From contig NZ_CP139482.1 in assembly GCF_041222825.1 (NCBI RefSeq), positions 2,077,001-2,141,000 of the forward strand: a DNA stretch of 64,000 nucleotides. The letters are read 5' to 3'. The notes below the pieces were generated by a model. The model was not told the DNA's origin. It was given only the letters and a program-made list of their open reading frames with translations, and did not search any database. A program made the position numbers and the translations under genes. Positions 1,395 to 58,110 of the stretch are shown piece after piece. Position 1 is the first letter of the stretch. The number at the start of each line of letters is the position of its first letter. The stretch comes from Candidatus Thalassolituus haligoni. GTDB lineage: Bacteria; Pseudomonadota; Gammaproteobacteria; Pseudomonadales; Oceanobacteraceae.

Positions 1395-1542
1395 TTGCAC
1401 ACTCCTAAGTGGTGATTGTGCTGGGGCGTTGCAGGGGTTAATAAATCCCTCAAGCTGCGGAAATTGAATTTTCCGATACCTTAGGGGTGGATGTATTAAC
1501 ACCTTCAACTCCTAGTTCGTTCTTTGCGATTGATGAGCTAAA

Positions 1543-1807
1543 GGGGGCATCTATTTAATCCTGCACGGCTCTGCGCGAGTGTTGCCGTTGTTCAGGGCAA
1601 GGCGGCGAATGCAGCGAAAGGACACGTCCTTTTCACATTCGTCAACACCGCACTGGACGGCGGCAACCTGCGCCCTGCGGGGGCTGCCGGATGATCTCGA
1701 CTCTGTGTCGCCGACGTTTGACTTGACCCGTCAGGCCTGCAAGTCGGCTTCGTGATTCGGAACCATCCGGTAGCCCAGAGTGAGCACCGGATTAAATAGA
1801 TGTCCCC
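1543..1807. mobile_element. 265-bp MITE-like element, copy 1
   Basis: The element ends in a 19-bp inverted repeat: right end GGATTAAATAGATGTCCCC, left end its complement with one mismatch (GGGGGCATC instead of GGGGACATC). It is flanked on both sides by TAAA, a candidate 4-bp target-site duplication. A second copy at 19008-19272 has the same length without indels and about 94% identity (16 differences counted by eye). The interior has no convincing gene but several internal inverted repeats, for example AAAGGAC-AC-GTCCTTT and GCTGCCGGATG against CATCCGGTAGC, so one strand could fold into a multi-stem structure. This is what a non-autonomous transposon (MITE) looks like. The parent transposase is not in the window. 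Confidence 0.85.
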
Positions 1808-2422
1808 TAAAGATACTGGAGGTAGAGTTTTATTTTTTATCACATGGTTAAAATAGTTTTTTTCATTTCAAGTATCAAGGCTTGAAGGGACGAAAATCTC
1901 TTCAGGGCTGCTCTCGGTAATCCCTCATCTCTGATAGACGTTATTTTTGCATTTTAAATGGCCAGAATAAATGCCCTTTCGCCTGGTTTCGGTGTTTTTC
2001 ATTAAGTGCTCGGTTGGTCTCTGTCTGTAGGTCATTAAAAATAGATACTAAAGTTTATTGTTTTTATGGTGTTTTGCGTTCTATTCTGTTGCAGCGAAGA
2101 AGCTAGGTGCAATTGCTAGCTGGATCGGATAATAATAACAGCAGCAGCGAGAGCAGAAAAATTATGTAGATACTTTCTGTACCAATGAAACGATGGTAGT
2201 GCATTTTCTCATCAAAGAAACATTGATGGTTGGATTTTACAGTTCAGTGGCGAAAAAGTTGATTTATAAATATGGAATTACGGTCGGTGCTGTAAATTGT
2301 CGAGAATGAATCATAGGGATCACTTAGAGGACGGATTTTTTTGATATTACGCCGGTCTATCTGGTTGTAACAATTCTAGGGTTTATGATTAATTCTTAAA
2401 TCATATTTTTCAGTGGAGGTGG
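1808..2422. other. AT-rich intergenic region with no gene seen
   Basis: Between the MITE and the EthD-like gene lie 615 bp, visibly more AT-rich than the core genome. No open frame with a ribosome site or recognisable protein fragment was found on either strand. It must contain the promoter of the EthD-like gene, but no clear sigma-70 or sigma-54 boxes can be picked with confidence. Confidence 0.5.
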
Positions 2423-10841: not shown

Positions 10842-10917
<76 letters not shown>

Positions 10918-11029
10918 TTTTCTCTTCATGAGAATGTGGTCAAAAGAAAGGATCTCAACATCAGTCACCCAGGCACTGGATCTGAAGTTTGTTTTTCTTC
11001 GGTTTTCTTCGCTCTTGATGAGAACTCCC

Positions 11030-11103
11030 GGCGCGATAGCAAAGCGGTTATGCACTGGATTGCAAATCCACGTAGGCCGGTTCGACTCCGGCTCGCGCCT
11101 CCA
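11030..11103 (+). tRNA. tRNA-Cys (GCA)
   Basis: A 74-base cloverleaf with acceptor GGCGCGA paired to TCGCGCC and an encoded CCA. The anticodon arm TGGATTGCAAATCCA carries GCA. It lies 112 bp after tRNA-Gly. Confidence 0.97.
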
Positions 11104-11154
11104 AGTTTCTAACAGGCATCTGACATAAAAGCAGATACCTGTAATCGCCTGTTA

Positions 11155-11241
11155 GCCCGGGTGGTGAAATCGGTAGACACAGGAGACTTAAAATCTCCCG
11201 ACCTTACGGTCGTGCCGGTTCGATTCCGGCTCCGGGCACCA
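11155..11241 (+). tRNA. tRNA-Leu (TAA)
   Basis: An 87-base type II tRNA with acceptor GCCCGGG paired to CCCGGGC, a long variable arm (CGACCTTACGGTCG) and an encoded CCA. The anticodon arm GGAGACTTAAAATCTCC carries TAA. It closes the tRNA cluster. Confidence 0.97.
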
Positions 11242-18892: not shown

Positions 18893-19007
18893 GCTTCATT
18901 CCTTGGTCGTCTCCCTTTTGGGGGTCGAGGCAATGTAATGGGTTTTCAATTATTTGCAACTTGTGTCCAATACTTAGAGGACTATCCGTGTACTATCCGC
19001 AGTTGTA

Positions 19008-19272
19008 GGGGACATCTATTTAATCCTGCACGACTCTGCGCGAGTGTTGCCGGTGATCAGGGCAAGGCGGCGAATGCCGCGAAATGACGAGTCCTTTTCA
19101 AGTTCGCCAACACCGCTCTGGACGGCGGCAACCCGCGCCCTCCGGGGGCTGCCGGATGATCTCGACTCTGTGTCGCCGACGTTTGACTTGACCTGTCAGG
19201 CCTGCAAGTCGGCTTCGTGATTCGGCACCATCCGGTAGCCCAGAGTGAGCACCGGATTAAATAGATGTCCCC
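19008..19272. mobile_element. 265-bp MITE-like element, copy 2
   Basis: Same element as at 1543-1807, with perfect 19-bp terminal inverted repeats (GGGGACATCTATTTAATCC and its complement). It is flanked by TGTA on both sides, a 4-bp target duplication different from the one at copy 1. This shows that each copy inserted independently. It lies in the divergent promoter region between nhaB and fimL and could affect either gene. It carries no plausible gene. Confidence 0.88.
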
Positions 19273-19384
19273 TGTAGCACAGTTGTGGGTATAAAGACCC
19301 TGTGCATGGCTCTGTCCTGCAAACGGGCTGCTATTTCACTTCAATGTCGCAAAACTTTCGCGATTAATATATGAAGTGGATAGA

Positions 19385-54239: not shown

Positions 54240-55484
54240 TTAATACTCGGGCTTCAGCTTTTTATTGCGGGCGCTGGCATGGCGCTCGCGCATTTGCGTA
54301 TTAATGTAACGATCCGTCGTTGCCATACTGGCGTGCCCCGCATCTTCCTTGACATGCTCTTTCGGACGGGTTCGAACATCTTCTGAGATGCCGGTGTGCC
54401 TGAGCCAGTGAACCGTGGCGACCCGCAACTCCTGCGCTTCATCTTCCAGTCCCTCCTGCTTCATTCGCGCAAACGCCGTATCAAAGCAGAATTGCACCAG
54501 ATAGCGGATTTGTCGTGTACTGGTGACCGCGCCGCGCCCCTTCAGTTTTGGCACCAGAGGTGTCTGCTCGCCCGGAAGTGGAAGGCGGCTCAAGCCAAGA
54601 TGCTTTCTGTAACGAATCAGCGCATCCAGCATATCGTCCGATACAGTGACCATGCGGGCCTTGTTGCCCTTACCGACAACCCGCAACCACCAGTTGCCAT
54701 CCGGATCGCACTGAAAGTCTCCCATCATCGGCGAGGAGCGTTCATCCGCAACCAGTTCTGAAATTCTCAGGTACATACCAAACAGGCAAAGCATGATAAA
54801 TAGCGAGCGCTCGTGCTCTTTCGGGTTTTCTCGTGCCAGCAAATCAACGGTTTCCCGAATGTAGTCCCATTGCAAATTGGAGATTCGTCGAATGGGTTCA
54901 GCGTAGGCGTGGCGTTGAAGGTATTTGCTTTTTTGTCGTATCAGGGCAACCGGATTGGTTTGGAGATAATCTTCCTGAATCAGGTAATTGAAGTAACTGG
55001 ACAGTACGGCAAATAGCGACTGGAGGCTTTTTTGTGATAACGCAAATACATCCGGGCGCTCTCCTGACAACGAAGACTTGTCTGGCTGAATCACAAAGGG
55101 ACGCCATTTGTCATTAGGCATACGTCCTTCCTGACTGTTACCAAAACGTGCCGCCTGACTGGTGCCGATCCAGCCAGGAGGGGGAGACTGACAGAAGCCG
55201 ATGTAATCTTCTATATCTGCCCGTCTTAGCTCGCCGAGAGAACATTGGCGTACCATGAACGTCCATTGCAGCAAGCGCTCAATTTCACGGCGGTAGCTAT
55301 TAAAGGTGGCTGTTGAGCCATTAAAGCTGACCAGGAATTCAAACGAATGCACCAGATCATCAAAACAGCCTTCAATCTCTCTTAGCTCTGGCTGGCGCAA
55401 CATAACCTGCCGAGCATCAGTCAGCGGGCTACTGAGATAATTCAGATTGTCGATGAAGGGGATTGGGGACGAAACAGTAGACAT
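54240..55484 (-). CDS. tyrosine recombinase / site-specific integrase
   Basis: A 414-residue recombinase with a SAM-like N-terminal DNA-binding domain (about residues 45-200) and an intact catalytic domain: Arg240 (LRISEL), Lys272 (VGKGNKAR), His359-x-x-Arg362 (HWLRHTG), His384 (GHAS) and Tyr393 (DRYI). The family is that of phage/island integrases and XerC/D-like recombinases; no partner gene is obvious. It lies at the edge where core genes end (phaB 12 bp away) and mobile genes begin, which suits an island integrase. No flanking attachment repeats were found by eye. Confidence 0.9.
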   Translation of the reverse strand: MSTVSSPIPFIDNLNYLSSPLTDARQVMLRQPELREIEGCFDDLVHSFEFLVSFNGSTATFNSYRREIERLLQWTFMVRQCSLGELRRADIEDYIGFCQSPPPGWIGTSQAARFGNSQEGRMPNDKWRPFVIQPDKSSLSGERPDVFALSQKSLQSLFAVLSSYFNYLIQEDYLQTNPVALIRQKSKYLQRHAYAEPIRRISNLQWDYIRETVDLLARENPKEHERSLFIMLCLFGMYLRISELVADERSSPMMGDFQCDPDGNWWLRVVGKGNKARMVTVSDDMLDALIRYRKHLGLSRLPLPGEQTPLVPKLKGRGAVTSTRQIRYLVQFCFDTAFARMKQEGLEDEAQELRVATVHWLRHTGISEDVRTRPKEHVKEDAGHASMATTDRYINTQMRERHASARNKKLKPEY

Positions 55485-55584: not shown

Positions 55585-55736
55585 TTACTTGTTAGCCATG
55601 ATGTCTGCCAGTCGAACCATTAACGAGCGGGCAGCATTATTATTAAACTGTTCACCGTGCTCAATGTAACCGCGCACCGTTGCATCGCTTTTCCAGCCAC
55701 CCTGTTGCTTGATCAGCTCAAAATCTACATTGAGGT
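55585..55736 (-). pseudogene. C-terminal stump of a TnpS-like tyrosine recombinase
   Basis: The minus strand encodes DFELIKQQGGWKSDATV, then YIEHGEQFNNNAARSLM, VRLADIMANK and a stop. It closely matches the C-terminus of the intact recombinase at 57085-58110 (DFELIKKQGGWKSDATV, YIEEGQQLSNNASVVLM), including the catalytic tryptophan, but the tyrosine is preceded by RG instead of WE. Upstream of the stump the match is lost and no start is available. It is the remnant of a second recombinase gene, left by deletion or by insertion of another element. Confidence 0.82.
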
Positions 55737-55823: not shown

Positions 55824-56879
55824 TTATCGCGATAGTGACTCCTGAAGCTGCTTAAACTGCCCCTGAATCACCGCTTTTTCCTGAAGAATCAACTTGTACT
55901 CATCGGACAGAACTTCCACTCTATTCTGAGAGGCTATCAGATCGGCTTTAGTGGTCTCGAACGCTTGAGATAGTACGGCCACTTGCTTATCGACGTCTGC
56001 TTTCTGGCTGGTGAGTGCGGCAATATTATCCACCAATTGTTCGCTTTTATGCTGCTGCTCCCGGCTTTTTGCCGAGGCGTCGTTAAGTTGATGCTCTAAT
56101 TTCTGGATATCGGCCACTTGTCTATCCAGAGTGCCTTTTTGTATCGCATTGGCTTGTTCGAGTTCATGGGTGTGTCGTTGTAACCACTCATTGGCGTCAA
56201 CCAGCTCGGACGCTTTTGAATCAGCCTGTGATAGTCGCAGTTGCAGGTCTTGAATCTGGTCTTTCAGGCCGCGGCTTACCAAGTGGAACTGTTCGCGCTC
56301 CTGCTGGCGATCTTCGGCAGTGCGCTGCTGGTAATGTTCGAAATGATCTCGGATATCCCGGTTTTCTTGCTTGAGTTCACTGACACTCTCCTTCAAGTCG
56401 TTGGCTCGCGTAAGAGCTTCGTCCCGTTGGGACTCGGCATTTGCCAGGCTGACACGCACGTCTTCCAGGGACTGACTTTGCTCGCTTTTTTCTTTGCTCA
56501 GCCGTTCTGCCTGGTTCTCTAGGTCCTGTTGTCGGGCAGTAAGTTGCGCGATGGCATTGTTGGCTTGGGTCAACTCATTGCGGAGTTCTTCATTTAATGC
56601 CTCAAATTCCCGGCGGGCTTGTTCGATACGATGATCCGCCATCTGCTGTACCCGCTCATGCAGGGACTTTACCACTTCGACGAGGTCGTTCGGCAGTCCA
56701 CTGACAGCGGCTGCTTCCCCGTTGTCCGACCGCCAACGCTTGAGCAGTGGTGCGATGGTGCTTTTGCTGCCGGTGCCCAGATGCTCCCGTACCCGATCTA
56801 CCGTGGGCTCCTGGCCTTGCGTTTTAACGGCTTCAGCGGCTTTGGCGATATCGTGGTACGTGACTCCGGCGCGGGCCAT
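55824..56879 (-). CDS. KfrA_N DNA-binding coiled-coil protein, TnpT-like
   Basis: A 351-residue protein. Residues 1-65 form a KfrA-type DNA-binding domain (GVTYHDIAKAAEAV, PTVDRVREHLGTGSKSTIAPLLKRW). The remainder, about 70-345, is one long coiled coil rich in Gln, Glu, Lys and Ala. KfrA proteins bind plasmid DNA and multimerise. The divergent arrangement with a tyrosine recombinase across a 205-bp region matches tnpT/tnpS of Tn4651-type transposons, where TnpT assists cointegrate resolution. GAGGAACC lies before the ATG. Domain call strong; TnpT role inferred from layout. Confidence 0.85.
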   Translation of the reverse strand: MARAGVTYHDIAKAAEAVKTQGQEPTVDRVREHLGTGSKSTIAPLLKRWRSDNGEAAAVSGLPNDLVEVVKSLHERVQQMADHRIEQARREFEALNEELRNELTQANNAIAQLTARQQDLENQAERLSKEKSEQSQSLEDVRVSLANAESQRDEALTRANDLKESVSELKQENRDIRDHFEHYQQRTAEDRQQEREQFHLVSRGLKDQIQDLQLRLSQADSKASELVDANEWLQRHTHELEQANAIQKGTLDRQVADIQKLEHQLNDASAKSREQQHKSEQLVDNIAALTSQKADVDKQVAVLSQAFETTKADLIASQNRVEVLSDEYKLILQEKAVIQGQFKQLQESLSR

Positions 56880-57084: not shown

Positions 57085-58110
57085 ATGAACAGCAAATCGC
57101 CAAAAATGGTCACTGAACCGTCATTACGTAATGAACATTCGAGACTGGTTGCACGCCAGGAAGCCGAGTCATTGCAGCAATACCTCCAGGCAGCCACATC
57201 CGACAACACCCGCAGAGCCTATCGGTCGGCCATCCGGCAGTTTGAAAAATGGGGTGGTCGCCTTCCGACGGTTCGGGACACCGTGGTGCGCTACCTGCTG
57301 GCCCGAGCCGAATCACTCAATCCGCGGACCCTGGATCTGCACCTCACTGCGATCAGCCAGTGGCACCATTATCAGGGACTGGGTGATCCTGTTCGCGATC
57401 CTCTGGTGCGTAAGACCATGGATGGCATCCGTCGCACCCACGGGAAGCCCAAACGCAAAGCCAAGGCGCTGCGCCTGGAACACATTGCGCTGATGTTGAA
57501 GCATCTACAGCAACTACCAGACAGCAAGAAGAAGTATCGGGATGTCGCACTGGTGCTAACGGGCTTTTTCGGGGCCTTTCGTCGCAGCGAACTGGTCGCA
57601 ATAAAAGCCAATGACTTGGTGTGGGAGCCGGAAGGCTTGATTATTCGGCTGCCCCGTTCCAAGACCGATCAACAAGGGGCCGGCTTAGTGCGAGCATTAC
57701 CTTTCGGTGCGCCAGGCTGCTGTCCTGCTACGGCCATGAAGAACTGGATAGAATTGGCTGATATCAATGAAGGTCCGGTTTTTCGCCCCATTAACCGTTG
57801 GGATGAGGTTCAACCCAAAGCACTGAATCCCGGTGGCATTAATGAATTACTCAAGACACTGGGCAACGCCTGTCAGTTCGATTTCGTACCGGATTTGAGC
57901 AGCCATAGCTTTCGGCGAGGTCTCTCTACATCGGCAGCCCGAGAGCGAGTCGATTTTGAGCTGATCAAAAAACAAGGTGGGTGGAAAAGCGATGCCACCG
58001 TCTGGGAATATATCGAGGAAGGACAACAACTCAGCAATAACGCTTCTGTAGTACTCATGGAGAAAATGAGTTTGCTGCTGAACGCTGAATCCCTAAAAAA
58101 GGGAAAGTAA
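57085..58110 (+). CDS. tyrosine recombinase, TnpS-like resolvase
   Basis: A 341-residue Cre-like recombinase. The N-terminal core-binding domain (about 30-120) includes DNTRRAYRSAIRQFEKWG. The catalytic set is complete: Arg167 (FRRSEL), Lys193 (RSKTDQQG), His274-x-x-Arg277 (SHSFRRG), Trp300 (QGGWKSD) and Tyr309 (WEYIEEG). AGGAG lies 8 bases upstream of the ATG. With the divergent KfrA_N gene and the inverted-repeat core site it forms a resolution module like TnpS/TnpT. It is convergent, with a 16-bp gap, with the ynfA-like gene of the metal cluster. Confidence 0.9.
   Translation: MNSKSPKMVTEPSLRNEHSRLVARQEAESLQQYLQAATSDNTRRAYRSAIRQFEKWGGRLPTVRDTVVRYLLARAESLNPRTLDLHLTAISQWHHYQGLGDPVRDPLVRKTMDGIRRTHGKPKRKAKALRLEHIALMLKHLQQLPDSKKKYRDVALVLTGFFGAFRRSELVAIKANDLVWEPEGLIIRLPRSKTDQQGAGLVRALPFGAPGCCPATAMKNWIELADINEGPVFRPINRWDEVQPKALNPGGINELLKTLGNACQFDFVPDLSSHSFRRGLSTSAARERVDFELIKKQGGWKSDATVWEYIEEGQQLSNNASVVLMEKMSLLLNAESLKKGK

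Follow-up and report, generated by a model that had tools for sequence, protein, structure and literature searches.

Candidatus Thalassolituus haligoni carries a gene-less 265-bp element twice within the 64,000-nucleotide stretch of DNA analysed here (the window), which raises the question of what this element is, how it is moved and why its interior folds. A first-pass annotation had described a two-copy, non-autonomous mobile element whose folding may matter and had hinted at REP-associated ends; the checks it named were searches for further copies, for 4-bp duplications at their flanks, for empty sites and for a transposase gene bounded by the same ends, together with a fold prediction.

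The element in the window

Copy 1 occupies positions 1543..1807 (+ strand; sequence inspection, direct-repeat search and BLAST). Its left terminal inverted repeat (1543..1561, +; 'N' end type, GGGGRCATCTATTTAATCC) was recognised by inspection, end-pattern search and family-wide copies, and its right terminal inverted repeat (1789..1807, −) by inspection and end-pattern search. The two ends, GGGGGCATCTATTTAATCC on the left and, as reverse complement, GGGGACATCTATTTAATCC on the right, are identical at 18 of 19 positions and are flanked on inspection by the target duplication TAAA (1539..1542 and 1808..1811), so that the 19-bp inverted ends and TAAA flanks of the annotation are confirmed. Between the ends lie two convergent hairpin arms, arm A (1565..1674, +) and arm B (1679..1784, −), which match the hairpin model R2 described below with 69.4 bits (E 8.4e-14) and 68.6 bits (E 1.3e-13), respectively, both being among the 60 arms from which R2 was built. 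An equal-length copy 2, which the annotation had placed at about 94% identity, was found at 19008..19272 (+; 265 bp, 94% identical to copy 1; direct-repeat search and inspection). It is flanked by the target duplication TGTA (19004..19007 and 19273..19276, by inspection) and contains arm A at 19030..19139 (+; R2, 65.9 bits) and arm B at 19144..19249 (−; R2, 63.6 bits). The window contains one direct-repeat family at a minimum length of 40 (1542-1808 and 19007-19273, 94% identical), and R2 detects in it, at E up to 1, exactly four arms, those of copies 1 and 2.

The sole listed open reading frame of at least 80 aa touching copy 1 is a mechanical 83-aa frame (1592-1843) that exits via the right end, in keeping with the gene-less interior that had been claimed. 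An Rfam scan of the whole window identified three tRNAs and nothing else; at the element, the one match at E up to 5 scored 9.2 bits where the gathering score is 40, so that no known Rfam family is matched above its gathering score. Folded as RNA, copy 1 reaches −139.5 kcal/mol (z −8.1), and folded as DNA it reaches z −6.3; in either case none of 200 dinucleotide shuffles was equally low.

The window also contains three consecutive tRNA genes (10842-11238) and a 96-nt inverted repeat (55633-55728 and 57949-58044, 75% complementary), one arm of which lies at the 3' end of a tyrosine-recombinase-like ORF (57085-58110). Nearby are a second tyrosine-recombinase-like ORF (54240-55484) and a coiled-coil ORF (55824-56879), all of these names being given by eye.

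Copies in the host genome and evidence for mobility

The host genome is a single 4.38-Mb contig, in which BLAST with the 265-bp element yielded at least 45 matches, at least 21 of them spanning 250 or more of the 265 query positions; these counts are lower bounds, as 40 of 80 first-look candidates were scored, and some elements yield two matches. The label 'two-copy' thus holds within the window and fails genome-wide. End-like sites with up to two mismatches number 89 (45 + 44), against 0 for a reversed control pattern. When 30 copies were compared with ORFs of at least 120 aa, none lay inside an ORF and one overlapped an ORF partially. Among distinct full copies with the window's end type in the wider family, 25 of 47 are flanked by exact 4-bp duplications, compared with 2.3 in shuffled pairings. 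Many copies, inverted ends, exact duplications and intergenic sites together support the earlier view of the 265-bp element as a non-autonomous mobile element, that is, a bacterial MITE.

The comparison with empty sites bore this out in part. The relative Oceanobacter sp. 1_MG-2023 lacks the element at the site corresponding to copy 2, at a divergence too great for a clean single target copy to be visible, and a search of the genus's six other genomes found no match to the left flank of copy 1. Similarly, a Pseudomonas plasmid is without the element at the corresponding place and is too diverged to display the target. Shorter copies of about 164 bp in the host genome retain one of the two arms. 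By eye, several of these one-arm copies at different sites have one deletion junction in common (ATTTAATCCGGCAGCC), and the one-arm form therefore probably moved as such.

In two assembly records from this species or one very close to it (G055, locus L337; CAJXTI, locus L186), MITE copies join flanks that are separate in the host genome, reflecting either rearrangement between copies or an assembly error.

An IS1111/IS110-type element (NF033542) was furthermore found at the same place in a MITE end in six of seven own-genome copies or pieces, with loci L314-L319 at C1:1168779, 1705886, 2982509, 3806823, 3840179 and 4042733. It has a long 3' non-coding region and, by eye, subterminal repeats; two short non-coding segments, whose last letters are AATAGATG and GGGACA, correspond to either side of the MITE-end target (by eye). 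In a P. penaei relative of this element with another target, the segments end GTGGGTG and AACGGACA (by eye), of which the AACGGACA segment matches its own target and the GTGGGTG segment does so over the last four bases only. Such matching of segment and target is compatible with guide-RNA targeting, which has been described for IS1111 (PMC11187229).

Two end types around one core in related genera

The element is present in 13 of the 55 genomes searched, including its own. A core-pattern scan of named genomes identified 119 stretches in Oceanobacter, Parathalassolituus, Bacterioplanes, Thalassolituus and one 'Thalassobium' record; genome labels are G001 (O. kriegii DSM 6294), G003 (Oceanobacter sp. 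1_MG-2023), G004 (P. penaei), G005 (O. mangrovi), G011 (B. sanyensis) and G028 (T. marinus). Matches in other genera mostly align query positions from about 14–19 to 245–265, at 66–80% identity, and are confined to the interior, since those genera carry ends such as GGNNCCTCTGAATAA.

A motif search of the loci recovered 122 distinct full copies, comprising 47 with N ends (the window type), 70 with O ends and five untyped, the latter being left out by the typing rule and included in neither duplication count. Of the 25 exact duplications at N-type copies, 15 are of the form T..A. Exact 4-bp duplications flank 30 of the 70 O-type copies (10.6 in shuffled pairings), and 21 of these 30 are CTAG or TTAA. 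End type therefore goes with target preference, T..A for N and CTAG/TTAA for O. A tree of 117 distinct interiors (46 N, 71 O), which is unrooted, requires one change of end type, with support of 100/98, and both end types are present in O. kriegii and P. penaei. Comparing N with O copies over columns with few gaps gives identities of 55% for the ends, 69% for the paired interior and 78% for the unpaired interior. The N and O ends align without gaps and agree at 11 of 19 positions; their differences come in blocks and affect both ends together, with no clear intermediates seen by eye among the copies.

Pattern matches in addition include head-to-head overlaps of two O-type ends, each a 27-bp palindrome, in genome G014 (C1:390419-390445, 948411-948437 and 1723965-1723991) and very short N-end pairs of 58-89 bp in G003 (C18:20486-20568, C66:65646-65703 and C1:141280-141368), which are possible minimal elements; both are known as pattern matches only.

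Candidate parent insertion sequence

At three places in the host genome, element-like ends about 1.2-1.3 kb apart flank an IS5-family gene, which is intact in one of the three copies and encodes a 348-aa transposase (DDE_Tnp_1; NF033581, IS5 family). The ends of this insertion sequence, GGNYCCATCTATTTAATC (in fuller listing GGNYCCATCTATTTAATCAG) and GGGGAGATCTATTTAGTC, have about 17 bp in common with those of the element, with 2-3 differences. It has only its ends in common with the element and is the best candidate parent; the proposed search for a transposase gene bounded by the element's ends thus yielded a candidate. The result that the first-pass annotation regarded as speaking against mobility, neither further copies nor ends in common with a transposase, did not occur. 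By eye, no exact target duplication was seen at the three IS copies. No such transposase was identified at E ≤ 1e-20 in G001, G004 and G005, three element-bearing relatives of the N end type; genome G002 contains a related, interrupted IS with an end pair of the same kind. In P. penaei, two O ends 1.47 kb apart looked like the termini of a transposon and proved to belong to separate elements.

Outside the host, an IS5-family gene in Bacterioplanes follows the end GGCACCTCTGAAAAAT, which resembles the GGCACCTCTGAATAAT of the local element, one IS end being seen. A third end type, GGGTCTGTTGA, borders annotated IS5-family genes in an Acinetobacter and a Paracoccus plasmid, where a single end was seen in either case, and is present at both termini of arm-bearing elements on Pseudomonas, Catenovulum and Pseudoalteromonas plasmids. 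REP and BIME sequences are short palindromes without target duplication. By this definition the element is not one of them, and the hint at REP-associated ends found no support, given the 19-bp inverted ends, the 4-bp target duplications and the IS5-family candidate parent. BLAST of the element (E ≤ 0.001; 40 of 80 candidates scored) listed no match inside the three IS places, so that at this threshold its interior is not derived from the IS, as it would be in a type I element, and the element is at most a type II MITE in the terms of PMC10969869.

A convergent two-hairpin core, apparently selected as a single-stranded fold

The core comprises two homologous hairpins of about 107 nt, arm A (+) and arm B (−), in convergent orientation. 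Mean identity between the arms is 49% across 72 elements (63 of 89 class loci and nine of the N/O family, shorter and weaker ones being omitted), and the arm consensus reads CTCAG-stem-GCAAGGCGC-stem-GCAGGGAATGGC..GCCCTTTNCAAG-stem-GCAACGCCGC. R2, which was built from 60 arms of 30 elements, was applied to 46 loci; it found two arms at 20, all 20 of them convergent and 3-9 nt apart, and one match at 26, including one-arm elements. With this geometry, the sense hairpin is met first from whichever side the element is entered.

In the N/O family alignment, 54 of 88 pairs are changed on both sides (none of 500 shuffles was equally high), and 95.4% of paired cells are consistent with pairing, compared with 81.4% when shuffled and 32-45% in slid structures; the folds were derived from the same alignments used for counting, which favours the real over the slid versions. 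In the R2 arm alignment, compensatory changes occur at 30 of 30 arm pairs, and unpaired columns, a set that includes those flanking the hairpin, retain 0.80 bits versus 0.56 bits for paired columns.

A strand test used the pairs predicted from both strands and compared G-T with A-C mismatches there; equal numbers are expected if only duplex DNA matters, and the figures count cells and not independent events. In the N/O family the G-T/A-C ratio is 37/12 in arm A, 9/55 in arm B and 21/26 in the ends with the outer stem. Class arms, each read on its own strand, give 71/22 and 106/24, alignment A3 gives 64/33, phylum arms 87/28 and one-arm copies 26/9. The own-strand RNA fold is likewise the lower one in 44 of 60 (A3), 38 of 49 (phylum arms) and 15 of 17 (one-arm copies) cases. 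Pooled over the whole element, the test has no G-T excess (46/67) because arms A and B have opposite signs, and a 'DNA only' reading of the pooled result was dropped once the arms proved to be inverted homologues with opposite asymmetry. G-T mismatches outnumber A-C on one strand in arm A and on the other in arm B, with no such excess in the ends, which suggests that selection acts on each arm as a folded single strand, either RNA or ssDNA. Statistically, the core is thus kept by selection as a single-stranded fold with one arm per strand; covariation and strand asymmetry take the earlier remark that folding may matter well beyond what was claimed.

Distribution across class and phylum

A covariance model (R1) built from 65 copies of the N/O element family matched 58 of 369 gammaproteobacterial genomes, in 47 of 272 genera (own genome counted), and 311 of the 369 had no match. 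Matches outside the family reach E-values, which are rough, down to 5e-45 and are mostly full length; per-genome copy numbers are lower bounds, five candidates having been scored in nearly all genomes. Most elements across the class are near 265 bp long, with a second length class near 160 bp. Their ends are very diverse (e.g., GGGCCAAGTGGAAAGTTCT, TACTCTTTCAAGGTAATAA, TGTCCTGTCACACGTCTAATG and GGAACCTCTGCACAA), and CTAG or TTAA often lies just outside them. R2 matched 112 of 398 Pseudomonadota genomes in 55 of 213 genera, again with the own genome counted and some beyond Gammaproteobacteria, and 286 of the 398 had no match.

Named relatives occur on plasmids of Azotobacter chroococcum, Halomonas sp. 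PA16-9 (seen as a BLAST row only) and Pseudomonas aeruginosa. Plasmids and phages queried with the window element gave no match, nor did plasmids queried with four distant relatives of the element; with a query from a different family within the order, eight plasmid records matched, four over about half of the query and four in part. One arm pattern, searched in viral contigs, gave no match. A literature search outside most subscription journals and preprints found no description of such a core.

Proposed explanation and alternatives

We propose, with a probability of roughly 0.6, that the element is moved by IS5-family functions, has changeable ends and carries a selected two-hairpin core that most likely acts as RNA. 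Mobility together with a selected core is the part in which we have high confidence; the RNA step is tentative and stands at somewhat less than an even chance. The element would be moved in trans by IS5-family transposases and would consist of two separable parts, a core and ends of very roughly 18-30 bp, the latter recognised by the resident transposase and changed from lineage to lineage. We infer that a change of transposase caused the ends to differ. The fold would most likely act as RNA in read-through transcripts, a preference that rests on the convergent pair: from whichever flank an intergenic insertion is entered, a sense hairpin comes first. Such an orientation-independent structure on the entry side would make intergenic insertion tolerable, for example by countering polarity or stabilising the transcript, and copies with a good core would survive and spread. 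One-arm copies in the host genome (n = 8) show no sense bias in read-through direction, with two sense, three antisense and three ambiguous.

The strand asymmetry fits ssDNA equally well as RNA, and the convergent pair places one hairpin on each strand. The arms might thus be ssDNA hairpins, one per strand, to which a protein of the host or of a mobile element binds while the DNA is replicated or transposed, as at attC or REP sites, a reading that we regard as unlikely. Three of 11 one-arm copies lie on the G-rich and eight on the C-rich replication strand, a bias that is not significant (one-sided binomial chance of eight or more about 0.11); moreover, several of these copies are not independent because they have one deletion in common. 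IS5 transposases are DDE enzymes and are thought to work on duplex DNA, which also argues against the ssDNA reading. Far less probable still is an ordinary IS5-derived MITE with a functionless core, whose palindromes would be kept alike by template switching between the hairpin sides during replication. Template switching at quasi-palindromes can mimic compensatory change. MITEs with strong predicted folds are known (PMC10969869). Against this reading, conservation in the core is higher at unpaired than at paired columns (78% vs 69%; 0.80 vs 0.56 bits), the mismatch asymmetry is opposite in sign between the arms and absent in the ends, and across a class the core stays recognisable for longer than the ends.

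How the ends came to differ is a separate matter. Rather than drifting stepwise with their transposases, the ends could have been replaced as the core was repeatedly transferred into new IS ends by recombination. The block-wise difference at both ends together, with no clear intermediates by eye, speaks for such capture, which we nevertheless consider improbable, though marginally less so than the ssDNA reading: the length near 265 bp of most two-arm copies class-wide and the gapless alignment of N and O ends (11 of 19 positions) suit drift.

MITEs are usually treated as decaying leftovers and are recognised by their ends. A comparison of N-type with O-type copies in this one family shows the ends to be least conserved and the gene-less core most, and the core is traceable through much of a phylum. 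The preferred reading of a mobile element with a selected core may extend further: the core could be an undescribed, phylum-wide mobile functional nucleic acid, with convergent strand-specific hairpins that endure over long periods by riding many different IS5-family transposases and swapping ends, in a family defined by its passenger fold and not by its ends. We rate this just short of an even chance. Should the overall picture of the element hold, it would provide a covariance model applicable to any sequence, a case in which a switch of transposases by a non-autonomous element can be put to the test, and a candidate for a new class of structured RNA or ssDNA whose action does not depend on the insertion orientation.

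Comparison with known systems

The closest known system is MITEPsy1 of Pseudomonas syringae, which is described in PMC3189936 as 100 nt long, probably linked to IS5 (ISPsy2), duplicating CTAG or YTAA and functionally active. It has the probable IS5 link in common with the element, and its end ..CCTCTGAAAAAGCC resembles O-type ends. Unlike the element, MITEPsy1 is too short for one arm and two ends, and no core fold is described for it in that text, in which the terms 'secondary structure' and 'stem-loop' are absent (PMC3189936). QMITE and Chunjie MITEs (about 190-400 bp) resemble the element in size, in their tens of copies, in their shortened forms and in the strong predicted fold of QMITE2; in contrast to the element, they are described within single species, and the accessible part of the source describes no cross-genus core with differing ends (PMC10969869).

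The insertion of the host's IS1111-type element at one fixed place in the ends of the 265-bp MITE is comparable to that of IS4321/IS5075 into Tn21 ends (PMC11187229), with the difference that the target here is a MITE end.

REP/BIME sequences with their RAYT transposases are intergenic, of high copy number and of alternating orientation like the element, which differs in its length of 265 bp, its 19-bp inverted ends, its 4-bp target duplications and its IS5-like ends. Integron attC sites are imperfect hairpins whose fold on one strand matters. The element shares with them an imperfect hairpin with a strand-dependent fold and departs from them in presenting two convergent hairpins inside a transposon-like frame.
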